The position numbers and the translations under genes were made by a program. Below are positions 8,897-37,547 of a DNA stretch of 50,954 bases, one piece after another. The notes under the pieces are model-generated. The model saw nothing but the letters and a program-made list of their open reading frames with translations, was not told the DNA's origin and did no database searches. Source of the DNA: Acidobacteriota bacterium. GTDB taxonomy: Bacteria > Acidobacteriota > Terriglobia > Acidiferrales > UBA7541. Where the stretch lies: NCBI GenBank assembly GCA_003223325.1, contig QHYS01000065.1, positions 15,351-66,304 of the forward strand. The letters are read 5' to 3'. The first letter of the stretch is position 1, and every line of letters begins with the position of its first letter.

Positions 8897-11192
8897 GCCG
8901 TAGTCTTGGTAACGTCAGTTTTGGGCGCTGCAGGGGGCTTTCTCTGTGACGCCGGCGCTTGCGACTTCTGCTCCTGCAAGGCCTTCCACACGCGCTCAGG
9001 CGTCAACGGCAGTCTGCGAATGCGCACTCCTGCAGCTTGGTACAGAGCGTTTGCGAGGCACGCGCCGATCGGATTCACACAGCCTTCGCCGCCTCCTTTT
9101 GCGCCATATGGCCCCACTCCATCGTGATTCTCGACGAGCTTCAGCTCAACCCTGCGGGCCAAATCGGAGAATCGCGGCACGCGATATTCGAGCAGGGTTC
9201 CATTCATCAATTGCTGCCCCTCATAGATCAGCTCCTCGAATAAGCCGATGCCAAGACCCATTGTGGCGGCGCCCAAATCCTGGCTCTCGGTCATGGCCGG
9301 ATGGATGGCCAGTCCCACGTCTCCCACGGTGACCAGCGTATCGAGGGAGATTTTTCCGGTTTCTTCGTCCAGCGCGATCTCGACACCCACGACGCCGATC
9401 TCCCAGAATACCGGCACGGCTTTCAAGGCCCCGGCTCGGCGCAAATAGGCACGTCCGATGATGCCGCAGCCCTCCATCTGGAAATATCGCTCGATGATTT
9501 CTGGCCAGGAGAGCCAGTCCTTTCCGTGGCGAATCCCGCCACGTTCCTCAGTGAATTCGCCCGCCGGCACGCCGAGAAGTTCCGCGGCCATGGACTTGCA
9601 TTGCGTGATCGCTTCGCGGCAAGCCTCCATCACGGCTCGGCCCATCAGCGTGGTGGTTCGGCTCGCGCCGGTCGAGCGTTCGAAAAGTGTGACGCCCGTA
9701 TCGGAACCGACTAGCCTCACTTTTCCGAGTGGAACGCCCATTTCTTCTGCGGCGATCTGCGCCAGAACGGTGTGACTCCCCTGGCCGATCTCCGTGCTTC
9801 CGCTCATCACCGATACCGACCCGTCCGCGTAGACGTGCACCATCGCCAAGGTCACCGGATGCGCCCCGGCATCGCTGCAAGAACAACAGACCGACCGGCC
9901 GTGCTTCAGTGCCAACGGGCCATTCGATCGCAGCGTTTCGGCGGCGAGGCGAATGTCGCCCGGCACGTCTGCGTCAATCGGACGCAGGCCAGGATGAATG
10001 GACTCGCCGCTATGAGCCAGATTGCGCAGCCGGAATTCCTGCGGGTCGCAGCCGATCTTGTGGGCTAGTTCGTCCATCTGGGATTCGACAGGAAACGTAA
10101 TTTGCGCCGCTCCCAATCCGCGGTAGGAACTTGCGGGAACTGTGTTCGTGTAAATCGCCAGGCAATCGACTCTCACGTGCGGGAAGCGATAGGGTCCAAC
10201 GATCCGGTTGGCGGCTTTGCGGCAGACCATGGGGCTGTTTTCCGCATATGCACCTGTATCCAAATGAATCGTAGCCTGCTTGGCGATGAGCTTGCCGGAG
10301 TCATCCACGGCGGTACGAATATACACGCGTGCGTCGTCAGACCTCGTGGTCAGAAAGGCTTCCTCCACGCTGAGTTGCAATTTTACCGGCCGCGACACCT
10401 TCCAAGAACATGCCGCCGTGAGCGGCTCGATTTTGGTGTACGACTTGCTTCCGTAGCCGCCACCCACGTAAGGCACGATCACGCGCACGCTGTTCAGCGG
10501 CAGATCGAAGATTTCGGCCAGGTCGTGGCGCACCATGAAGGGATGCTGCGCCGAAGAGTAGACCGTGAGCTGGCCCTTGGAGTCGTAGTCGGCGACGGCC
10601 ACGTAGGGCTCCATGGCATAGGCATAGACCATCGGAAAATAGTATTCGCCCTCGGCAATGTGAGCTGCCGAAGCGAAAGCGGCATCCACATCGCCCCACT
10701 CCACGTGCACGGCTTGGCAAATATTTTTTGTGCCTCCCGGAAAATCGTCGAAGCCACGGAAGGCGCCGCCAATGTAATCCATCCCATGAACAAGCACGCC
10801 GCCCGGCGCGAGCGCGCTCTCAACGTCCAGCACAGGCACGAGCTCTTCGTACTCCACCTTGATTTTGTCCAGCGCCTCCTGTGCGCTCAACTGGTCTGCG
10901 CCGATGACTGCAGCTACCGGCTCGCCGACAAATCGAACCTTGCCGATGGCCAGCAAGGGATGATCCTTCACGGCATGGCCATAGTAAGGGCGAAGAGAGC
11001 CGAGGTCATTTCCGGTGAGTACCTCAATGACTCCCGGCTGGCGCTTTGCTTCGGAAACGTCGATCGCGAGAATCTTGGCGTGCGCAAAGCGTAGGTGGCG
11101 CTTCCAGTGACCTTGGCCACCCCATCTGCACGAGGAACGGAATGATTCACAACCGCAAAGGCTTTCGCGTCGCGCTTGTTTGCGTCACTCAA
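8893..11192 (-). pseudogene. Xanthine dehydrogenase family molybdopterin-binding large subunit, frameshifted with internal deletion
   Basis: The start MSDANKRDAK at 11192 overlaps the small-subunit stop by 4 bp. It reads normally through SVPRADGVAKVTGSATY, then at about 11088-11095 homology jumps to another frame at RFAHAKILAIDVSEAK. The 17-18 residues that normally lie between (the region around LPGMLHAKVLRSP) are missing. From there to 8893 the protein is complete, with AYRG-type SYRGLGAAQ and the C-terminal GAKGGGEGCVNP carrying the catalytic Glu. The substrate loop is of XDH type, not the CO dehydrogenase VAYRCSFR. Internal GTG codons, for example at 10971, could start a truncated protein. 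Either a real lesion or an assembly fault. Confidence 0.75.
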
Positions 11193-11683
11193 GACGTCGA
11201 CCTATTTTCTTTCCATGTGGCCTTCATTTCTGCAGAGGCCTGCCGGATAGCCTTGAGAATCCCCAAATACCCGGTGCACCGGCACAAGTTACCGCTCATG
11301 TAAGCGATGATCTCTTCGTCGGAAACATGCACATTTTCATCCAGCAGCGATTTTGCCGCGAGAATCATGCCTGGTGTGCAGAACCCGCACTGGAAGGCGA
11401 AATGATCGAGGAAAGCCTGCTGCAAGGGGTGCAGACGGCCCGGGGGATCCGCCAGCCCTTCAATCGTGGTCACGCGCTTATCCCGGATTTCGTAGGCGAG
11501 ATACGTGCAGGCGCTGACGGGAAGACCGTCGACGAGTACGGTGCAGCTGCCACAAACCTGGGCCTCGCAGGAGAGCTTCACTCCGGTGAGCCGGCAGCGG
11601 GCTCGCAGGACTTCGGCGAGAGTCTCGCGCGGTTCAATCTCTAACGACGCGGCTTTCCCGTTTAATTCAAATCCGATTTTCAC
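11189..11683 (-). CDS. Xanthine dehydrogenase family 2Fe-2S subunit (CoxS-like)
   Basis: 164-aa small subunit with two 2Fe-2S clusters. The plant-type ferredoxin cluster is bound by CRLTGVKLSCEAQVCGSC plus a later Cys in VSACTYLA. The second cluster is bound by CGFCTPGM and the CRCTGY motif. The four-helix C-terminal domain ends near residue 155. The gene overlaps its neighbours by 4 bp on both sides (ATGA), giving translational coupling with the coxG-like gene and the large subunit. It would shuttle electrons from the molybdenum site to FAD in the cytoplasm. Intact, in contrast to the broken large subunit next to it. Confidence 0.93.
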   Translation of the reverse strand: MKIGFELNGKAASLEIEPRETLAEVLRARCRLTGVKLSCEAQVCGSCTVLVDGLPVSACTYLAYEIRDKRVTTIEGLADPPGRLHPLQQAFLDHFAFQCGFCTPGMILAAKSLLDENVHVSDEEIIAYMSGNLCRCTGYLGILKAIRQASAEMKATWKENRSTS

Positions 11684-12183
11684 CGGCCGTCCTTGGCGGA
11701 TTGAAGGCGCGGGTTGGCACGAACATCGGTCGCAAACTGCGCCCGAATATTGCGAGCAAACTCGGCAAATTTTTCCGTAACTTTTCGCCGGATGGGTGCC
11801 GCGCCCAATGTCGCCAGCTTGCCTAGGATTTCTATATTCGCTTCGAATCGCATCTGCGCAGCCGACGCGGCGGGACTCAGCATGATATGCAACGAGCCGG
11901 CAATGTGATTGAGCCCGATGGAATCGGCCCCTTTGATACTCGCTTTCAAAAATGATGGCGCCCGTGTCTCGGCCACGCGGATTTCCAAGTTCAGAGCTAC
12001 CTTGAAGGGGCCGATCTTGTCGCTGGCCTCGGCGTGGTATGCTTCTACACCGGGCTGATTGAGCGGCGTGACCTTTTCAACTCCCGGCAGAAGACGCGCC
12101 AGCCGGGGCGTGTCACGCAGAAGTCTCCACACATCCTCCAGCGAAGCGTCGAGATTTAACTCCTCTCTGATTTCCAGTAGCAT
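11680..12183 (-). CDS. CoxG-like SRPBCC family protein
   Basis: 167-aa START/Bet v 1-type fold protein of the CoxG family, often encoded with molybdenum hydroxylases and thought to help assembly or membrane association. I start at the ATG at 12183 (MLLEIREELNLDASLEDVW); the frame continues to a TTG at 12237 with less plausible sequence. The pattern PRLARLLPGVEKVTP is typical for CoxG. It is the first gene of the four-gene operon and overlaps the next by 4 bp. No strong Shine-Dalgarno is visible. Confidence 0.8.
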   Translation of the reverse strand: MLLEIREELNLDASLEDVWRLLRDTPRLARLLPGVEKVTPLNQPGVEAYHAEASDKIGPFKVALNLEIRVAETRAPSFLKASIKGADSIGLNHIAGSLHIMLSPAASAAQMRFEANIEILGKLATLGAAPIRRKVTEKFAEFARNIRAQFATDVRANPRLQSAKDGR

Positions 12184-12330
12184 CGCGACCCGGGGCGTTC
12201 CCTCATGCGTCCTTTCGCATTCGTGTAGCGCCCTCAATTATTACCGTGCAGTTCTTTTCAAGGCAAAAACTAAATTGTACGCGAGCCGCGGCGTGCAACA
12301 ATTATGGCGCTTCCGCTCAGGAGTATCTTG

Positions 12331-13152
12331 ATGGTACAGACGACTTCAATCGCGCGCGCGAAGGATGGATGCCAGATCTCCTATGGCGTTTATGCCAATC
12401 CCGGAAGCCCGCGGCTCGCGCTGATTCATTCGCTCGCTCTCAGCGGAGCAATGTGGAGCGAAGTCATTGCTCAGCTTGCTGCCGCCGTGGAGATCCTTGT
12501 TTACGATTGCCGTGGGCACGGGCAATCGGAACGCCGGCCCGGGCCCTACAGCGTCGAACTCTTTGCCGACGATCTCGCGGCGCTGTTCGATTCTTGCGGC
12601 TGGTCTTCGGCAACCGTTGCCGGATGCTCGATGGGCGGCTGCGTGGCCCAAGCATTCGCAGCCGCATATCCGCAGCGAGTGCGAGGATTAGCGCTGATCG
12701 ATACTACCGCCTGGTACGGACCGACGGCGCCAAAGGATTGGAAAGTTCGTGGCGCGAGGCCTGCAGAATCCGGGTTTCCTTCCATGGTCGAGTTCCAGCT
12801 CAGCCGCTGGTTCAGCGACAGTTTCCGGGATTCGCACCCGGAGGTTGCGGAGCAGGCGACGCAAATTTTTCTGGCTAATACCCCAGCTTGTTACCAGGCG
12901 GCCTGCGAGATGCTCGGAAACGCCGATCTGCGGATGGCCGTGCGCGCGTTTCGCATGCCGGTCTCGGTGATTGTGGGCGAAGAAGATTACGCCACGCCAG
13001 TAGCGATGTCCCAGCAGCTCTACGAAAGTATCCCCAATTCGACGCTGAGTGTGATCGCCGGCGCACGCCATACCACGCCCGTGGAATGCCCCCTCGAAAT
13101 TGCCGGTTTTTTGAGTGACCTCGTAGGGAAGTCGGCCGCTGCTTCGCGCTGA
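12331..13152 (+). CDS. Alpha/beta hydrolase, 3-oxoadipate enol-lactonase-like
   Basis: 273 aa. The start at 12331 has AGGAG 7 bases upstream; an in-frame ATG at 12304 lacks one. Alpha/beta-hydrolase features: oxyanion region HSLALSG near residue 37, nucleophile elbow GCSMGG with its Ser, DTTAWYG, an acid in VGEEDYATP and a C-terminal His in GARHTTPVE. The spacing matches PcaD-type enol-lactonases, which open the lactone ring in the beta-ketoadipate pathway. Being divergent from the molybdenum hydroxylase operon and convergent with a UbiD decarboxylase suggests aromatic or lactone catabolism, but the substrate is inferred only. Confidence 0.82.
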   Translation: MVQTTSIARAKDGCQISYGVYANPGSPRLALIHSLALSGAMWSEVIAQLAAAVEILVYDCRGHGQSERRPGPYSVELFADDLAALFDSCGWSSATVAGCSMGGCVAQAFAAAYPQRVRGLALIDTTAWYGPTAPKDWKVRGARPAESGFPSMVEFQLSRWFSDSFRDSHPEVAEQATQIFLANTPACYQAACEMLGNADLRMAVRAFRMPVSVIVGEEDYATPVAMSQQLYESIPNSTLSVIAGARHTTPVECPLEIAGFLSDLVGKSAAASR

Positions 13153-13154
13153 TT

Positions 13155-14780
13155 TTATTTGGGCTGGCCCTCGACTTTGCGGACAGGGGTTTCCGGAGTG
13201 AGGCCGCCGCGGCGGCGGGGGAACGTGTTGAGCCCGTTTTTCTGCCATTCGCCGGCGACGGCATTGCACGCAAACGCGTCCCAAGCTTCGCTCCAATCTC
13301 CTAACGAATAGCCATGCCAGGGCTGCTGCACGCGCAGCGCGGGCAAGTCCAGTTGCTTCCAAATTTCCAGCGCTGCCTCCATAAACTCGCGCTTCGGCAG
13401 AGCCAGCGGCGGCATGGGATATTTCAGAGTCGCATCGATCAGCATGGTGGAATCCAGGGTCTGTGCCCCCGATTTGGGCGCGTGGCCGATGGAGCGGTAA
13501 GGTTCGATGTGCACGTCGTTTTGCGGATTCGAACGATAAGCAAGCGACCACAGCACCGCGTCCGTATTGGACGGATCGATATCTTCGCTCACCGCAATCA
13601 CGATCTTCCCGCAGTCGGCACGCAGAGCCGCAGCGCCTTGCAACCCTCGCCAAACCTCCGTGCGCGGCGCGTCATTCGCGAACTGCAGAAAAATTAACGG
13701 CCGAACATTGCTCAGCGGCTCGTGCAGGACCACGCGACCAATACCCTTGATCGACAAATGCTCGCGTAAATGCGCGAGGAACATGGGCTCGTAGGCGACT
13801 TTCTTGATCATGCTCGATTCGCTCGGCGTGACTTGGCTGATGATGGAGACGAAGACGGGGGAGCGCCGGTGCGTAATGGCCGTCACCTGCATGGACATGT
13901 TGTAGTCTTCCAGCGCGACGTAGCCATTGCTTTCCCCGAAAGGCCCTTCGGGCTCGAGCAGATCGGTATCGATCACCCCTTCGATCACGATTTCCGCGTC
14001 GGCCGGCACCTCGAGATCCAGCGTCACGCATTTCGCGGTCCGAATAGGCCTGCCCGCAAGCGCTCCCGCCACGCCCATCTCGTCTTGATTTATGGCCAGC
14101 TTCTGCGGACCCGTGAAAATCACCGCGGGTGCGCAGCCAATGACGATGGCGCATGGCATGGGCTCGCTGCGCGCGCGATATTTCTGCCAATGCAGATAGC
14201 CCCCTGCACCGCCGATTCGCGCAGACATGCGCACGCCGAGCCGATCGCTCTTTTTCAGCGCCCCCCGATAGGTGCCCATATTACGCACACCCGTTTCTGG
14301 ATCGCATGTGATGCAGAGTGTAGCCGTGAGATAAGGCGCGGAATCGAACCCCGGGGTGGAAATAGGAATGGGCAGACGCGCCAGCCCGCCATTCGGACAA
14401 CGAAGATCGTCGCCGCTTATGATCACCTCCTGGCAGCACGGCGAACCAATCACGACGGGAGGGATGGGATTGGCGATGGCATGGGTCCACGCGGCGCCGA
14501 TCTCGTCAACGGCGCGCCCTATCCCGAGTGCATAGATCTTGGCCGAAGCCGCCAGCGCGCCGACGGCGACCGGAATATCGTAGTGCCGGCCCTGCGAATC
14601 GACCACGTTTGTAAAAAGAAATGCACGGCGCTCGTCTTCGGGAATGCCTCCAAGGAATTGCCAGCGAACCAGCGGGTGTAGTTCCGTATCTTTATTGATG
14701 GGTCTGTCGACGCGGACCAGCAGTCCATTCGCCTCCAGCGCCGCCAAATGTGTCTGAAAATCGAGGCTGGGTCCGCTCAC
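13155..14780 (-). CDS. UbiD-family decarboxylase
   Basis: About 541 aa if it begins at the GTG at 14780 (VSGPSLDFQTHLAALE). UbiD enzymes use prenylated FMN for reversible decarboxylation of aromatic or unsaturated acids. Visible landmarks are VIGSPCCQEV, MGTYRGALKKSDRLGVRMSA, the INQDEMG segment, and EPEGPFGESNGY, which holds the acidic catalytic residue of the family. The C-terminal oligomerisation helix region (EAALEIWKQLDLP) is present. The reading frame is open upstream through the C-terminal part of a permease to 15125, so a fused product is possible. No prenyltransferase (UbiX) is in the window. It ends 2 bp from the convergent hydrolase. Confidence 0.85.
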   Translation of the reverse strand: MSGPSLDFQTHLAALEANGLLVRVDRPINKDTELHPLVRWQFLGGIPEDERRAFLFTNVVDSQGRHYDIPVAVGALAASAKIYALGIGRAVDEIGAAWTHAIANPIPPVVIGSPCCQEVIISGDDLRCPNGGLARLPIPISTPGFDSAPYLTATLCITCDPETGVRNMGTYRGALKKSDRLGVRMSARIGGAGGYLHWQKYRARSEPMPCAIVIGCAPAVIFTGPQKLAINQDEMGVAGALAGRPIRTAKCVTLDLEVPADAEIVIEGVIDTDLLEPEGPFGESNGYVALEDYNMSMQVTAITHRRSPVFVSIISQVTPSESSMIKKVAYEPMFLAHLREHLSIKGIGRVVLHEPLSNVRPLIFLQFANDAPRTEVWRGLQGAAALRADCGKIVIAVSEDIDPSNTDAVLWSLAYRSNPQNDVHIEPYRSIGHAPKSGAQTLDSTMLIDATLKYPMPPLALPKREFMEAALEIWKQLDLPALRVQQPWHGYSLGDWSEAWDAFACNAVAGEWQKNGLNTFPRRRGGLTPETPVRKVEGQPK

Positions 14781-16278
14781 GGCCGACAATTTCCAGAAAA
14801 ACACGAGCAGTACCGCGAGGATGGCCGTTACGGCGAGCTGCAGAAGCTGCCAGGGCAGGCAAATGCGAAAGATCTCACCGTCCTTGCCTTTCACGTTGGC
14901 CAGCGATGCAGCGTAAGAGATTTGCGTTGGCTTGAGTGCGTTCGGCGGTCCCATGGTGACCACGGTCACGATTCCAACCAGCAGCATGAGTGGTATTCCT
15001 AACAGCGGCGCGATGCGAACCTGCATCTGAGACAAGAGAAAGTCTCCCGGCAATCCCTGGCCGAAAGCCATGCCCCCAAGAAAGGCCACGCCCGGATAGA
15101 GCGAAGCATAGATCTCCCGCATCAACCATCAGGTAGACTGTGGCGCTCCCCACCAGAAGAGTGGTCAAAGGAGCACGGCTTCGGCGCGTGGCCGTAAGCA
15201 AGTCCTTTGCGACATTGGCGCGCTTGCAGCGAAAAAGGTAGGCCACCAGCGAGGTGACCAGAATAAAGAATCCGGCGGAAGTAAAAATGTTGATTGAAAA
15301 GCGGCGGTATCCCCAGGCGGCGACTCCGAACTCCACGTGCGTCAAGGCGCGTTCGATGGAAGGAAGCTTTGTGAGAAGAACGATCATGATGCCCAACAGC
15401 AACGGACCATACGCCCGGAAGCGCATGGTCGCGGGAAAGGAAGAACGCAAAGCTTCCGGCCGGGCCGCGCCGACGACGCTCTGCACGTTCTGCCTCACGG
15501 AAAGGCGTCCATAAAGGTAGATATTGCCGAGGGAAATGGCTGCTCCCGTTACCAGCGTCATAAGATAGTAAGCGGGCCAAACCTGCGTGAACAAAATGAT
15601 GGCCACGGCGTTGCCCAACCCCATCGACCAAAACAGGACCTGCGTCTCCCATTCGAAGAAGCGGAATCCCAGAATCTTCAAAAAACCAAGCAGCGAAAGA
15701 AAGGTCAGCGGGATGCTCAGCAAGCCGGCGCTGCGTACGATGTCCACGACAGGAACTCGACTCGCTGCGTTCGAAATCGTCGGCCCAATGAACAGGCTAT
15801 TAAAAGGCAGCGTCCAGGAGAAATAGACAAGGTAACTGGCGCAAGCAGAGAGCCCGTCAAAACCTAAGTCGACAAGCCCCGGAATCGTCACCGGGTACGT
15901 CGCAAAGCCATTGAACGCAGCGATGAAACCGCCCACCACGGTCACTAAAGCGACTGCGCGCCCTTCTTGATCCCAACTGGGGACGATCGATTGCACCGAT
16001 TCCAGCAATATCTCGAGCAGTCCGGTATTCCGATAGGCCTGCCCAAAAATTTGCCCGGTGTAGAGAACCAAAAAGCCCGACCACATAGAGAGATTGCCCC
16101 ACAGAGAAGCTTCGGCGCTTCTCACCAGCGTCATATGGTAATAGCCCAGGGCGATTACCAGCTCGACGCCCCACGCGGCTGTGACCGCGCGCACGGCATC
16201 CCACTTGAAAATAAGGAATGCTGAAAACAGTACCGCAAAGGGGGCCAGTGTGATCACGACTTCTGTGCTTGTGCGCAA
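14781..16278 (-). pseudogene. L-lactate permease (LctP) family transporter, frameshifted
   Basis: Polytopic membrane transporter. The TTG start at 16278 has GAGGGGG 6 bases upstream. The first ~385 residues contain many hydrophobic helices and the LctP core (VVGGFIAAFNGFATYPVTIP). The matching C-terminal part (LYPGVAFLGGMAFGQ, GPPNALKPTQISYAASLA, KGKDGEIFR) lies in a different frame beginning near 15120. One extra base at about 15105-15120 would explain the switch; the original frame runs on as non-homologous sequence to 14875. The corrected frame has no stop before the UbiD gene. LctP proteins take up lactate, glycolate or other organic acids. Decay, sequence error or recoding are all possible. 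Confidence 0.75.
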
Positions 16279-16493
16279 AAATCCCCCTCAGCCAAGCCAA
16301 GCGTCATTGTGTCACGTTCTTTCGGGCAAAGTCATCCCTTCGCGCCGAATGTCCCCCAGAGCGAATCGTCTATCAAAGAGTTGTGGAGCAAGATCGCCGA
16401 GGTGTGGTGTACCGTTCGGGTAACATCTAAAAAAGGATCTTACTTGTTTGCAACCGGGCCCCAGTAGAATCACCTGCGATTACGGAGGCGCAT

Positions 16494-17132
16494 TTGAGCG
16501 AAAATAGAGAGCTCGCCGCACTTGTAACTCGAGTGGAACACTTGGAAAAACAAAACCGCAGGCTCAAGCGAGGAGCGCTGGCGTTCTTACTCGCGATTGC
16601 ATCTGTCGGCCTGATGGCGCAAACGCGCCAGACCCCGCCAAGCACCAGCCAAAGACAAAAGGGGCGTGCGCCGGCTCCGGCGCCTGCGGGGCCGACCGCC
16701 GTTGAGGCGCAGGGCTTCATCCTGAAAGATTCGAATGGGCACGTGCGCGCTGAGCTGGGCCTGACGGGTTCGACGCCCAGCCTGAAATTCAAGGACGAAA
16801 GTGGTTCTGCGCTTGTCACCCTGGCTCTCAACTCCGACGCTCCGGGTGGACCGCTCCTGTTGCTATCCGATCCGCAGCATCACGCTTCGGTAGCACTGAG
16901 CGTGCTCGAACATGCCGGACCGCAGCTCTCTCTGACCGGCGAACGCGCCGACATACAGCTGCACATGGCCGTGGCGCCTGATGGCACTATACTTGAACTT
17001 TCCGACAAAGATGGTTTTACTACCAGCATCGGTAACGGCGTTGTTCCTAAAAATGGCCAGGCGAAACAGACTTCCGCGGCCTCCATCGTGCTATACGGCA
17101 AACAACGCAAAGTGCTTTGGTCTGTTCCGTAA
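16494..17132 (+). CDS. Membrane-anchored protein of unknown function, coiled coil plus beta repeats
   Basis: 212 aa. The TTG at 16494 is preceded by GGAGG with suitable spacing. Residues 1-24 form a short coiled coil (LAALVTRVEHLEKQNRRLKRG), followed by one hydrophobic helix (about 26-42) and a proline/alanine linker (about 48-68). The rest shows repeated beta-rich units, such as GFILKDSNGHVRAELGL, SLKFKDESGSALVTLAL and ILELSDKDGFTTSIG, each about 20-25 residues. The layout predicts an inner-membrane protein with a periplasmic beta-solenoid-like domain. I recognise no family or function. Similar repeats are common in Acidobacteriota proteins of unknown role. Confidence 0.65.
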   Translation: MSENRELAALVTRVEHLEKQNRRLKRGALAFLLAIASVGLMAQTRQTPPSTSQRQKGRAPAPAPAGPTAVEAQGFILKDSNGHVRAELGLTGSTPSLKFKDESGSALVTLALNSDAPGGPLLLLSDPQHHASVALSVLEHAGPQLSLTGERADIQLHMAVAPDGTILELSDKDGFTTSIGNGVVPKNGQAKQTSAASIVLYGKQRKVLWSVP

Positions 17133-17171
17133 CGCCTTCGGCGGCAAATCGTCTCCCTCCGGTGCGGTCTA

Positions 17172-18068
17172 GTGGGCGCCCGCGGCGATATCAAAATCGG
17201 CGTGGCGGGCTGGTCGTATAAGGATTGGCAGGGAATTGTCTATCCACCTTCTGTCAAGCCGAGCGCCCGCGTTGAATATCTGGCGCGCTTTTTCGATCTG
17301 ATTGAGATCAACACGTCTTTTTACGGGCATATCAAGCCGGCTGTGGGAAAAGAGTGGTGCCGCAAGGCCGCGAGCGTAAATCGCGATTTCGTCTTCACGG
17401 CAAAATTGAACCGCGCCTTCACACATTCCCCCGTGGCTGTTCTCGAGCCTACCTCGGCGAAAACCATCCGCCCCGCAAACTCGGACGAGCGCGAAGCCAA
17501 GGATGGATACGATGCCCTAGCAGCCGAAAACATGCTGGGCGCCCTGCTCGCGCAATTCCCGATATCGTTCAAGTGCACGGATGAGAATCGCGCTTACGTC
17601 GAGCAGTTGGCGCGGCTTTTTCGCAGTTATCCGCTGGTTCTAGAGATCCGCCATGCAAGTTGGAACGAGCCGGAGGTCCTCGCCTGGATCGAAGAGTTGC
17701 ATGTAGGAGTCTGCAATATTGACCAGCCTCTCCTTGGTCGCGCGATTCGCCCTTCGGCGCACGTTACCTCGGTTGTGGGCTACATTCGCCTGCACGGTCG
17801 GAATTACAAGCAATGGTTCGCGGAAAAAAACGTCCGCGATCGCTACGACTATCTCTATTCCACGGAAGAACTAGCGAAGTGGAAAGACCGGGCGGTGGAA
17901 GTGGCCGACAAAGCGGAAACCACTTACGTTGTGGCCAACAATCATAATCTGGGCAAAGCCGCGGTCAATGCACTGGAGCTTATTGCCATGATCGAGGCTA
18001 GAAGGGTGCAGGCGCCTCCGACGCTCGTCTCGCACTACCCGGATTTAGAGCAGCTCACCAGTCCTTAA
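17172..18068 (+). CDS. DUF72 (YecE-like) protein
   Basis: 298-aa TIM-barrel-like DUF72 protein with no established biochemical role. GTG start at 17172. The diagnostic N-terminal GVAGWSYKDWQGIVYPP, then EINTSFYG, FTAKLNRAFTH, LLAQFPISFK and a C-terminal YVVANNHNLGKAAVNALEL, fit the family over its full usual length. The family's conserved acidic and aromatic residues around the barrel mouth are present. It lies 39 bp after the coiled-coil protein and 13 bp before the pseudouridine synthase, so it is probably in the same transcript. It is cytoplasmic, with no signal. Confidence 0.9.
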   Translation: MGARGDIKIGVAGWSYKDWQGIVYPPSVKPSARVEYLARFFDLIEINTSFYGHIKPAVGKEWCRKAASVNRDFVFTAKLNRAFTHSPVAVLEPTSAKTIRPANSDEREAKDGYDALAAENMLGALLAQFPISFKCTDENRAYVEQLARLFRSYPLVLEIRHASWNEPEVLAWIEELHVGVCNIDQPLLGRAIRPSAHVTSVVGYIRLHGRNYKQWFAEKNVRDRYDYLYSTEELAKWKDRAVEVADKAETTYVVANNHNLGKAAVNALELIAMIEARRVQAPPTLVSHYPDLEQLTSP

Positions 18069-34328: not shown

Positions 34329-34404
34329 TGGTGGGCGATCAAGGACTTGAACCTTGGACCTCTCCCGTGTGAGGGGAGCGCTCTAACCACTGAGCTAATC
34401 GCCC
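34329..34404 (-). tRNA. tRNA-Val (anticodon CAC), CCA encoded
   Basis: 76 nt on the minus strand including an encoded CCA. Acceptor stem GGGCGAT / ATCGCCC, D arm TAGCTCAGTGGTTAGAGC, anticodon stem CTCCC / GGGAG with loop CTCACAC, giving anticodon CAC for valine codon GUG. T arm GGTTCAAGTCC is present. The first 41 nt are duplicated at 36497-36537, marking this gene as an integration target. The sequence upstream of its 5' end belongs to the integrated element and shows no good sigma-70 promoter. Confidence 0.96.
34364..34404 (-). repeat. Attachment site copy within tRNA-Val (left end)
   Basis: 41 bp identical to 36497-36537. It covers tRNA-Val from nucleotide 1 through the anticodon loop and three bases of the 3' anticodon strand. 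The flanking bases differ on both sides, so these are the true limits of identity. The anticodon loop is the usual crossover place for tyrosine recombinases. Confidence 0.9.
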
Positions 34405-34459
34405 ATCTTGCTGAACACTTTCAACTTACAACTTCTGCATCAAAAAGGGAGTGTACTAG

Positions 34460-34481
34460 TTGCTTCACCGGTGCATCACCG
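34460..34481. repeat. Paired short words near left element end
   Basis: TTGCTTCAC (34460-34468) and GGTGCATCACCG (34470-34481) recur in swapped order near the right end at 36375-36395. They could be integrase arm-binding sites. Inside, GGTG..CACC forms a small palindrome. Confidence 0.35.
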
Positions 34482-34593
34482 CGCCTTTTTGGGCATTTGC
34501 GCGAGACGTGCGCCGCTGAATCTTAGCATACTCACCGCACACGTCCCGCGTATTGGTGATGTTGTACCGCTCGAAAACGTGGCGCGCACCCAT
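34465..34593 (-). pseudogene. C-terminal fragment of a second tyrosine recombinase
   Basis: Read on the minus strand, this stretch encodes about 42 residues beginning near GARHVFERYNITNTRD and ending at a TGA at 34465-34467. The VFERYNIT segment matches VFSRYNIT, the catalytic-tyrosine box of the integrase at 35327-36151, and the DNA of the two regions is recognisably similar (for example TGATGTTGTA in both on the plus strand). Nothing of the rest of this integrase remains upstream. It is 60 bp from the tRNA, the expected place for an integrase end. Too short for an annotation program to call. Confidence 0.72.
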
Positions 34594-34805
34594 TTGGATG
34601 CACCACCTAAGCGCGCGACAGCTAGCCGCCATCACAGCGTGGCAAACAGTTGCTCATTTCTTCCATTGCGCTTCCGCGTGTGATTCGGGCATTGCCGCAC
34701 CCTGCGGCGTCCCCACGAAATAAGTCTTTGCGATTCGGGGGCGGTAACAGACCCGCACAGTGGCACCCCAAATGCTTATGTCCAAACGTGCTCAGAGAGG
34801 ACCAA
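34594..34805. other. Element DNA between integrase fragment and PEP-CTERM gene
   Basis: About 210 bp without a supported gene; it should carry the promoter of the PEP-CTERM gene. I found no strong -35/-10 pair. The open frame that extends the PEP-CTERM gene upstream to 34650 has no signal or ribosome-binding site at its start. Confidence 0.35.
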
Positions 34806-35480
34806 ATGCAAAAACTGACTTCAGCGGTACTAACTTCAGCGGTACTAATTGTAGCGGTGATGCTCCTCGCCGCCGTCTCCGTGAGAGCGAACGAAACCAC
34901 ATCCCTTCCAGGTGGCACCCTGGAAGCGATGCCAGCCGTGGACCTCTTCGGAGCTGGACCACAAACGTTCGGTTCGGGAATCACTTGGTTCTCGTCGAAC
35001 TCGTGGTCCGTCTTCGGCTACCCCTACGGCTATGGTTTTGCAAGCAACGGATTTTGGGACGGCTCGCTGGGACCCATGGCCGGTCTGAATACCAGTTCGG
35101 GAACGATGACTTTTGCCTTTAGCACACCGATATCGGGTGTAGGGGGTTTGCTAAATTACGCCCCAGGCTATGGTCCGGGGGCGAGCATATCGGTATTTGA
35201 CTCAGGCGGAAACCTGATTGAGTCGGACGCCCTTACATTCACAACGGACGGTTCCACCGACAGTTCGATGTTCTTAGGTTTCCAGGAGTCGAGCAACGAC
35301 ATTTCCTCTTTCACGCTTTCAGGCGACTACATAGGGATTACAGGCCTCACTACCAGCACTGTCCCTGAGCCCCCTAATTTCCTCCTGCTCGCCACCGGGC
35401 TGCTCTGCCTCGGGATGCTGGCTTTGTGGCGCAAGGGAGGGAAATCATGGGCGAGAGAAATGTCCAGCACGCTGCCATGA
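34806..35480 (+). CDS. PEP-CTERM sorting-domain protein
   Basis: 224 aa from the ATG at 34806, preceded by AGAGGACCAA. A signal peptide covers about 1-28 (VLIVAVMLLAAVSVRA). The mature part is rich in Gly, Ser, Asn and aromatic residues with beta-strand pattern (FGSGITWFSSNSWSVFGYPY, TMTFAFSTPISGVGG, ISVFDSGGNLIES). The C-terminus has the sorting signal VPEPP, then a hydrophobic helix (NFLLLATGLLCLGMLALW) and a basic tail RKGGK, recognised by exosortase in strains that make exopolysaccharide. It is the only cargo gene of the integrated element. Its last 154 bp overlap the read-through tail of the convergent integrase. Confidence 0.87.
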   Translation: MQKLTSAVLTSAVLIVAVMLLAAVSVRANETTSLPGGTLEAMPAVDLFGAGPQTFGSGITWFSSNSWSVFGYPYGYGFASNGFWDGSLGPMAGLNTSSGTMTFAFSTPISGVGGLLNYAPGYGPGASISVFDSGGNLIESDALTFTTDGSTDSSMFLGFQESSNDISSFTLSGDYIGITGLTTSTVPEPPNFLLLATGLLCLGMLALWRKGGKSWAREMSSTLP

Positions 35481-36151
35481 TAGGCGGCCAAGTAAGCGGC
35501 TACGCACAGCGTGACTTCTGCGTTTGAATCTTGGCATACTGACCAACCTTTAATCAGGGCCTCGTGAATATCTGTCGCATCTGTGATGTTGTATCGGCTG
35601 AATACTTCGCGCGTTTTGTGGCCGCTTATCGTCATGTCCACGTCCTCTCTCACGCCAGCGCGGACCAGATTGCGTACAGCGGAACGCCGGAGGTCATGAA
35701 TCTTTAATCCCTGATAGCGCCAGCCGTCCTTCACACCGAGCCCGAGCTTGTGACACGCGGCGGCCCACTCCTTACGGAGATTCGTCGCGTCGAACACCGG
35801 GCCGTCCTTACGGAATTGCTTCTTCAGCATCGTGGACACTTGCTCAAGGCCCTTGCCGACCAGAGGCAACGTCAGCGGCTCGCCGTTCTTCGTAATCTCG
35901 CCGGGCAACTCAAGCTCTTTGCAGTCCTTGCTCACCATCGCCCAGGTAATCAGCTTGGCGGCTCCTATGCGGCAACCGGTGTAATAGAGAAACGTAATCA
36001 GCAGGTGCAGATGCTTCGGCATCGCAGCCCGGAGTTGATTGAATACGTCCGGATTGACGAATCCTGTGCGGGGCTTCGAGTCCTGAGGCATCGGGAAATG
36101 CGGGATGTCAGCTAACCGGAGCTTACGCTCCTTACGCGCTTGATTCATCAT
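35327..36151 (-). CDS. Tyrosine recombinase/integrase, apparently degenerate at both ends
   Basis: 274 aa. The catalytic domain is complete: Arg61 (TGCRIGAAKL), Lys88 (TKNG), His152 and Arg155 (HDLRR), His178 (SGHKT) and Tyr187 (FSRYNIT). The N-terminal SAM-like core-binding domain of normal ~350-400-aa integrases is missing. Integrase-like residues (RRELVTLRS) continue upstream of the ATG in the same frame but without a start codon, so the gene looks 5'-truncated. After about residue 203 the sequence loses integrase character and runs antisense into the PEP-CTERM gene, as if the normal stop was lost. It probably belongs to the element's own integration system; activity is doubtful. Confidence 0.75.
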   Translation of the reverse strand: MMNQARKERKLRLADIPHFPMPQDSKPRTGFVNPDVFNQLRAAMPKHLHLLITFLYYTGCRIGAAKLITWAMVSKDCKELELPGEITKNGEPLTLPLVGKGLEQVSTMLKKQFRKDGPVFDATNLRKEWAAACHKLGLGVKDGWRYQGLKIHDLRRSAVRNLVRAGVREDVDMTISGHKTREVFSRYNITDATDIHEALIKGWSVCQDSNAEVTLCVAAYLAAYHGSVLDISLAHDFPPLRHKASIPRQSSPVASRRKLGGSGTVLVVRPVIPM

Positions 36152-36411
36152 CGAGCGAAGCGTAACCAGTTCACGCCTGCAGGGTCGATCTCGATAACTA
36201 CAGAGAGAGACGGAGGGGCGATGCCCTGCTTGGAATCGTGTCTCACCTGAATGACTTCAGTCTCCGGCCAAGTCCGCAAATGGTTGGCGAGTTTAGTCAA
36301 AATGGCAGCGAGTTCGGGGCCAGTGATTACTGCGGGCGTCCGTTGCTTCATGGTCTTGGGAACCCCCGTTAGCGGGTGCATCACCGTTGCTTCACGCCCG
36401 TCAAAACTCAC
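36148..36411 (-). CDS. Small protein of unknown function upstream of the integrase
   Basis: 87 aa from a GTG at 36411; ATG codons further in (MHPLTGVPK or MKQRTPAVITG) are alternatives, giving about 66-77 aa. It overlaps the integrase start by 4 bp (ATGA). The sequence VITGPELAAILTKLANHLRTWPETEVIQVRHDSKQG looks like a real soluble alpha/beta protein, but I recognise no family. Being between the attachment site and the integrase, it could be an excisionase or accessory factor by position only; it has no helix-turn-helix I can see. The 3' end overlaps sequence that in another frame resembles integrase, so it may partly be a by-product of decay. Confidence 0.45.
   Translation of the reverse strand: MSFDGREATVMHPLTGVPKTMKQRTPAVITGPELAAILTKLANHLRTWPETEVIQVRHDSKQGIAPPSLSVVIEIDPAGVNWLRFAR
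36375..36395. repeat. Paired short words near right element end
   Basis: GGTGCATCACCG (36375-36386) and TTGCTTCAC (36387-36395), the same two words as at 34460-34481 but in the other order. They lie about 100 bp inside the right attachment site, so an arm-site role is possible. Confidence 0.35.
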
Positions 36412-36496
36412 TTAACAAACTGAGAAACCGCGCGGGCTAAATGGGTTGCTTTTCAACGTGGGCTAAGCGAACCTAACTTGGTCAACGGGCTGAATC

Positions 36497-36537
36497 CCCG
36501 TGTGAGGGGAGCGCTCTAACCACTGAGCTAATCGCCC
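36497..36537 (-). repeat. Right attachment site: orphan 5' half of tRNA-Val
   Basis: 41 bp identical to the first 41 nt of tRNA-Val, followed by unrelated DNA, so no 3' half exists and no tRNA can form. It retains the native upstream context of the ancestral gene (see the promoter at 36548-36576). The segment could still be transcribed as a 5' tRNA half. Confidence 0.9.
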
Positions 36538-36547
36538 GCGTTCGCTG

Positions 36548-36576
36548 TTTGTAGCAGATGCTTCAGGAAGCGTCAA
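36548..36576 (-). promoter_or_regulatory. Ancestral tRNA-Val promoter, now displaced
   Basis: On the minus strand, TTGACG (36571-36576) and TACAAA (36548-36553) are separated by exactly 17 bp and lie 10 bp upstream of the orphan tRNA 5' half. This is normal spacing for a tRNA promoter. The -35 overlaps the first base of the moxR start codon on the other strand. It now points at the orphan half-tRNA, the small ORF and the integrase. Confidence 0.6.
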
Positions 36577-37547
36577 TGAACGCGCCGAACATCGCCATGA
36601 CTACGGTGGCCACGTCCTCGCCGATCTCGCAGTTGCAGCGCGCCGTTGCGAGCGCCATTCGCGGCAAGGACGAAGCTATCGATCTGGCGCTAGTGGCCCT
36701 GCTGGGGCGAGGCCATTTGCTGATCGAAGATGTGCCGGGAGTGGGCAAAACGACGCTGGCGCAGGCGCTGGCACATTCCTTCCACTGCTCGTTTCAGCGC
36801 GTCCAATTCACCTCGGACATGCTGCCGAGCGACGTCGTGGGCATCAGCGTGTTCAATCAAGCCGAGCAACAGTTTGAATTCAAGCCGGGCCCGATTTTCG
36901 CCAACATCGTTTTGGCCGATGAGATCAACCGCACCACGCCAAAGACGCAGTCGGCCCTGCTCGAAGCCATGAACGAAGCGCAAGTGACGGTAGACGCGCG
37001 GACGCATGCGTTGCCGCAGCCCTTCATGGTGCTGGCCACGCAAAATCCCATCGAGCACCATGGCACCTATCCCTTGCCCGAATCGCAAATGGACCGCTTC
37101 TTGATCCGCATCCACATGGGCTATCCCTCTCGCGAAAACGAAAAGGAAATTCTGCGCAGCCGTGCCGACGCGCATAGCGGCGCCAGCGTGCAGCCGGTGA
37201 TGGAAGCAGGCGACGTCCTGGCCATGCAGCAGGCCGCCGCAGCCGTGCGGGTAGACGAGAGCCTGCTCGACTACGCTCTGGAGATCATCGAAAAGACGCG
37301 GCAAAACGAGCGGCTGCTTCTCGGCGTCAGTCCGCGCGGCTCTCTAATGCTGCAACGCGCGGCCCAGGCCCGCGCGTTCATCGCGGGGCGCGACTTCTGT
37401 CTGCCCGACGATTTCAAGCAAATGGTGCTGCCGGTCTTCGCACACCGCGTCGTGGTGAACGTGCGCTACGCCACAACCCAGAAGAAAACCACACAGGCCG
37501 AAGCCATCCTTGCCGAGATCATCGAAGCCACCCGCGTTCCGCTGTAG
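36576..37547 (+). CDS. MoxR-family AAA+ ATPase
   Basis: 323 aa. The start at 36576 follows CAGGAAG; an in-frame ATG at 36558 is less likely. MoxR ATPases act as chaperones that activate or insert metal into partner proteins, usually with a DUF58 protein. Walker A EDVPGVGKT at 51-59; Walker B VLADEINRTTPKTQSALLEAM; sensor FMVLATQNPIEHHGTYPLPESQMDRF; C-terminal lid VSPRGSLMLQRAAQARAF. The DUF58 gene follows after 7 bp and a TgpA-type transglutaminase is two genes on, the common three-part arrangement. Confidence 0.93.
   Translation: MNAPNIAMTTVATSSPISQLQRAVASAIRGKDEAIDLALVALLGRGHLLIEDVPGVGKTTLAQALAHSFHCSFQRVQFTSDMLPSDVVGISVFNQAEQQFEFKPGPIFANIVLADEINRTTPKTQSALLEAMNEAQVTVDARTHALPQPFMVLATQNPIEHHGTYPLPESQMDRFLIRIHMGYPSRENEKEILRSRADAHSGASVQPVMEAGDVLAMQQAAAAVRVDESLLDYALEIIEKTRQNERLLLGVSPRGSLMLQRAAQARAFIAGRDFCLPDDFKQMVLPVFAHRVVVNVRYATTQKKTTQAEAILAEIIEATRVPL

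Follow-up and report, generated by a model that had tools for sequence, protein, structure and literature searches.

A decayed prophage-type element at the 5' half of a tRNA-Val gene in an Acidobacteriota genome

A stretch of 50,954 bp from the genome of an Acidobacteriota bacterium (assembly GCA_003223325.1, contig QHYS01000065.1, positions 15,351 to 66,304; here called the window) carries a 2.1-kb element on the 5' side of a tRNA-Val gene. Judged from its sequence, this DNA is a decayed remnant of a prophage-type integrative element. It very probably stems from a family whose tyrosine integrases recombine in the tRNA anticodon loop with "reversed" polarity. This reading draws on a direct repeat at the element's ends, an empty site in related genomes, the homology of its integrase gene (int), short repeats kept at both ends, and the same layout in intact relatives.

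Analysis with ARAGORN revealed a complete tRNA-Val(CAC) gene as the sole tRNA gene in the window (Table 1). Its bases 1 to 41 recur as a maximal exact direct repeat of 41 bp at a spacing of 2133 bp. From the 5' strand of the acceptor stem, the repeat extends through the D arm and the anticodon loop and stops three bases beyond the loop, in the 3' strand of the anticodon stem. The sequences flanking the two copies are unrelated to each other, and an exact repeat of 41 bp is not expected by chance in 51 kb. Since the tRNA gene runs leftward, the element lies on its 5' side. A preliminary description of the sequence had noted both the identity from base 1 to the anticodon stem and this placement, and the exact repeat and the predicted tRNA bear it out; the span given there (34329 to 36537) is also correct, with inserted DNA proper of 2133 bp. 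That the strand was misread and the event was an ordinary 3'-half integration, the commonest form and the one used by the sister clades of the window integrase, is next to impossible: the repeat consists of bases 1 to 41, the element is on the 5' side of a complete tRNA, and the empty site described below refutes this reading by placing the host promoter beside the orphan half.

The uninterrupted locus was sought in 40 related genomes. In two members of the window's genus (G001 and G003), the matches to the DNA left of the tRNA gene and to the DNA right of the orphan half join up, overlapping by 41 bp. Their alignment shows tRNA-Val, then at once the conserved stretch that adjoins the orphan half in the window, and then moxR. 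The two genes are directly divergent at this empty site, and moxR next to tRNA-Val is the usual order in the family, seen in most relatives. Scripted joining of position 34364 to 36497 yielded a complete tRNA-Val gene, and the same join is natural in the two congeners. The empty site therefore marks the orphan half and its upstream DNA as the ancestral host copy. By this comparison, the element brought in the intervening 2133 bp as foreign DNA, bases 1 to 41 of the working tRNA gene among them. The preliminary description had predicted such an uninterrupted locus and had claimed that the element supplied its own 5' half and that the working tRNA gene takes its upstream region from foreign DNA, all of which agrees with the arrangement in G001 and G003. 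The locus also has the layout of an Islander-type island, with an intact tRNA gene (tDNA), a displaced 5' fragment upstream in the same orientation, an integrase between them, and an uninterrupted site in relatives. A second tRNA-Val(CAC) gene, about 80% identical, is present in the window's genome bin at positions 876 to 950 of a 3.5-kb contig (L002, G000:C157); it could be redundancy or a contaminant. In G002, checked as a possible second tRNA-Val insertion, the 5' half is interrupted by an NN gap in the tRNA contig.

The main integrase of the element has the catalytic domain of a tyrosine recombinase, with the R, HxxR, GH, and Y motifs present and aligned with intact relatives. It lacks the N-terminal region of these relatives and is frameshifted, and is therefore a pseudogene. 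We gathered integrase homologs from the window's family and class; a contig search for related loci with the truncated integrase gave no match, and the homologs came from whole-genome searches. In 22 sampled cases (5' type), int runs up to 22 bp past the 5' end of a co-oriented tRNA gene or reaches its stop codon up to about 80 bp ahead of that end (Thr-CGT and Glu, six each; Leu-CAA, three; Gln-CTG and Met, two each; Asn, Arg-TCT, and Thr-TGT, one each). A further 27 cases have the tRNA gene in the opposite orientation, the ordinary 3' geometry. The tRNA fragments at the far end run from base 1 to bases 37 to 41 in the 5' type and mostly from bases 29 to 32 to the end in the 3' type, which indicates that both polarities cross over in the anticodon stem-loop. 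Distal 5' fragments were found at G002:C128 (bases 1 to 41), G348:C9 (1 to 40), and G060:C21 (1 to 37), with two at G058:C321.

On the integrase tree, the window integrase falls within a clade of 18 rows with a support of 100 in the Shimodaira-Hasegawa-like approximate likelihood ratio test. All labelled rows of this clade are of the 5' type (16/16, window included), each with an adjacent, co-oriented tRNA gene whose 5' end is at the int stop codon, and the clade uses at least six tRNA species (Val, Asn, Glu, Thr, Gln, and Met). Its sister clades have ordinary 3' polarity with the same anticodon-loop crossover. Polarity changed at least five times on the tree, three of these changes being forced by well-supported branches, compared to 16.4 changes for shuffled labels. 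One origin for all 5'-type integrases was rejected in the approximately unbiased test (p-AU 2.5e-5; quick tree with some long branches). Among the matches listed, no named phage or plasmid exceeded 30% identity.

Members of the integrase family are also present in contigs of the IMG/VR database. Two of these, of 36.7 and 34.9 kb, encode a terminase and a major head protein and have an intact tRNA-Glu gene 3 to 6 nt after the int stop codon, with its bases 1 to 39 at the opposite end. Beside the displaced half, both show a TATAAT box that presumably belongs to the native tRNA-Glu promoter. At locus L281 of a relative, only bases 1 to 39 of a tRNA-Leu gene are found, beginning 13 nt past the int stop codon; from this arrangement, it is apparently an unintegrated phage attachment site (attP). 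Matching 3' halves were found for the opposite polarity (L199, L200, and L202). Terminase and capsid genes between the attachment (att) sites are present in the relatives G741 and G742 and absent from the window remnant.

Tandem 11-bp repeats with the consensus GKTGCWTCACC occur at both ends of the element, reading GTTGCTTCACC GGTGCATCACC near the tRNA gene and GGTGCATCACC GTTGCTTCACG at the distal end. In the intact relatives G002:C128 and G348:C9, similar shared repeats stand at matching distances from the two att sites (about +92 to +115 relative to the half, -60 to -78 relative to the tRNA gene), and G060:C21 has weaker ones at like positions. From their sequence and placement, they look like arm-type integrase sites. 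These positions also bear on the possibility that no site-specific integration took place, and that a tandem duplication or the insertion of an insertion sequence copied the 5' part of the tRNA gene next to an incidental integrase fragment. The broken integrases, the shortness of the element, and the rearrangement implied by two integrase fragments would fit such an origin. We nevertheless consider it highly improbable, as the repeat ends at tRNA base 1 and the anticodon loop, just as in intact relatives, the arm-like repeats sit at the family positions at both ends, and a duplication should have copied upstream host DNA as well.

The inserted DNA has a G+C content of about 55 to 58%, compared to mostly 58 to 63% in the flanks, and its features are listed in Table 1. 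Besides the main pseudogene, a C-terminal remnant of a second integrase lies 60 bp from the tRNA gene, the family's usual spot beside the tRNA 5' end. Its similarity to the family is weak, and it shares with the main integrase a 38-nt repeat at 74%. Two successive insertions followed by deletions would account for both fragments. That they instead arose by internal duplication within a single element, to which the identical 11-bp repeats at both ends would correspond, is rather unlikely, as the fragments differ (74% over the best 38 nt) and tandem arrays occur in the family, as G058:C321 shows. At that contig (L076; positions 3428, 6168, and 9774), the intact tRNA-Met gene is preceded on its upstream side by two successive 5' halves, and 5'-type elements are apparently arrayed there in tandem. 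For the PEP-CTERM-like gene, a search for homologs in the sampled loci gave a chance-level match only; the small open reading frame (ORF) had no family match in Pfam, NCBIfam, or PHROG and no homolog in the sampled loci.

Table 1. Features of the tRNA-Val locus and the inserted element (positions in the window)
Feature	Position	Strand	Evidence
Complete tRNA-Val(CAC): host 3' part (34329-34363) and element 5' part (34364-34404)	34329..34404	-	ARAGORN; empty-site comparison with G001 and G003
41-bp att repeat at intact tRNA (tRNA bases 1-41)	34364..34404	-	Exact repeat
Foreign 60-bp spacer, now upstream of working tRNA	34405..34464	-	No good sigma-70 match (z 0.6 over 90 bp upstream)
tRNA-proximal tandem 11-bp repeats GTTGCTTCACC GGTGCATCACC, putative arm-type integrase sites	34459..34480	+	Pattern search
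C-terminal remnant of second integrase (HVFERYN...)	34465..34581	-	Translation; tblastn similarity to C-termini of the family, weak (best E 0.001)
Gene for a PEP-CTERM-like secreted protein, possibly cargo (putative role), between integrase fragments, strand opposite to pseudogene	34800..35480	+	ORF; NCBIfam PEP-CTERM hit, weak and below cut-off
Main integrase pseudogene, tyrosine-recombinase catalytic domain, frameshift near 35549	35500..36178	-	Pfam PF00589 (E 1e-9); PHROG integrase (E 1e-20); alignment; frame analysis
Small ORF fused to truncated integrase start, overlapping distal arm-like sites	36148..36411	-	ORF only
Distal tandem 11-bp repeats GGTGCATCACC GTTGCTTCACG (+101 to +123 from half), putative arm-type sites	36375..36396	+	Pattern search
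Orphan tRNA-Val 5' half, displaced ancestral host copy	36497..36537	-	Exact repeat; continuous with native upstream DNA of G001 and G003
Native tRNA-Val promoter TTGACG-N17-TACAAA, left with orphan half, pointing into element	36538..36585	-	z 3.1; same motif in congeners
Flanking host gene for a moxR-type AAA ATPase, marker of the ancestral locus	36558..37547	+	Pfam AAA_3; adjoins tRNA-Val in most relatives

The promoter left with the orphan half has a counterpart of similar TTG...TACAAA form upstream of tRNA-Val in most relatives. No sigma-70 site emerged when the element was scanned with a promoter consensus; since the strict rule of that scan also rejects the native TACAAA box, a scored comparison was used. 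Mean upstream scores, which measure agreement with the consensus and are not evidence of transcription, were 0.3 for the 22 5'-type elements, 0.05 for control int ends, 1.4 for native tRNA-Val promoters, and 1.6 for the native tRNAs of 3'-type elements. By the same consensus score, a fair promoter match lies at the end of int in 5/22 5'-type elements. Some 5'-type elements seem to bring their own promoter, to judge from these matches, and others may rely on read-through from int.

We propose an attP in which the int stop codon is immediately followed by the tRNA 5' half. Strand exchange in the loop, presumably by an integrase that binds the 11-bp repeats, would join the element's 5' half to the host's 3' half and so restore the tRNA gene, and the host's own 5' half would be displaced with its promoter to the far end of the element. 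The restored tRNA gene would now be transcribed from element DNA, either by read-through from int or from a promoter in the int 3' end. Several observations speak against this reading. Both window integrases are broken, so that activity of the element is not demonstrable from the window, and nested insertion with deletion is just one possible route to two integrase fragments. Furthermore, the most similar integrase (G088:C34) is 1.1 kb away from its tRNA gene and does not adjoin it, and in most clade members no distal half was detected, owing to contig ends or to the length of the elements, so that their geometry rests on adjacency.

Beyond the preliminary description, the analysis points to a decayed remnant with two integrase fragments, a geometry common to the clade and its intact prophages, and a native promoter that faces the element. 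More tentatively, a whole clade of bacterial phage integrases may have its attP polarity inverted at the anticodon loop, with the target tRNA of the lysogen transcribed with or from inside int and the native promoter redirected into the element. If so, transcription of the element would become tied to the host's requirement for this tRNA. Part of what is believed to make tRNA genes good integration sites is that an element can replace their 3' half and leave expression undisturbed. With a 5'-replacing clade among 3'-type relatives that use the same crossover, one can study directly how an important tRNA is expressed once a phage has taken over its promoter, and how the polarity of an integrase switches. 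The clade also holds a warning for annotation, as orphan 5' halves beside strong promoters can mark 5'-type elements.

Integration into the 5' half is already known but uncommon, and the window element is a decayed case of it. The claim of the preliminary description that 3' restoration is the usual geometry fits the counts in the accessible Islander text, where 159 of 3919 islands have 5' tDNA fragments and 3760 have 3' fragments (PMC4383910). As described there, the 5' islands resemble the window element in their intact tDNA, displaced 5' fragment, intervening integrase, and anticodon-loop site A, and they appear in that text as counts (PMC4383910). In the present family, the polarity goes with a single integrase clade and is accompanied by empty sites, prophages, and an attP. 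The archaeal pTN3-type (TKV4) integrases of Thermococcales also take the tRNA 5' half, a situation that is seldom met in bacteria according to a review (PMC8371274, PMC5495485). As in the window, 41 bp are common to attP and attB, and the tRNA is restored but cut from its original promoter. In pTN3, however, att lies inside int and integration splits the gene (suicidal integration), whereas int of the window family is whole beside the tRNA gene in relatives; this family is bacterial and phage-borne, and the likeness noted is one of layout. Phages with a 3'-half tRNA attB, which include most mycobacteriophage tyrosine-integrase sites, likewise have a tyrosine integrase, a tRNA core, and paired arm-like sites, but it is the 3' half that they restore, and the native promoter stays where it was (PMC10865867). 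In tRNA-dependent lysogeny, the phage must also safeguard the function of its target tRNA gene; such a phage brings along a full tRNA gene and leaves the target unrestored (PMC10865867), whereas the complete tRNA at the window junction is rebuilt from the attP half. The literature searched, which covered few subscription journals, yielded no paper describing clade-wide reversed polarity; this feature in bacterial phages and its repeated switching may be new.

Further loci of the family were noted. The genes of a 7.3-kb 5'-type element in tRNA-Met (L117, positions 10506 to 17908; G348:C9) include those for a type II DNA methyltransferase and a phage head completion protein, along with a weak match to a restriction enzyme. 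At about 17835 to 19726 of contig G052:C118 (L118), a tRNA-Gln(CTG) gene is flanked by integrases on both sides, one of the 3' type with a reading frame antisense through the tRNA gene and, on the other side, a broken one of the 5' type. Inverted partial copies of tRNA-Glu occur near the int start side at L066 (G063:C6; positions 10736 to 10783) and also in G046:C271 and G058:C130.
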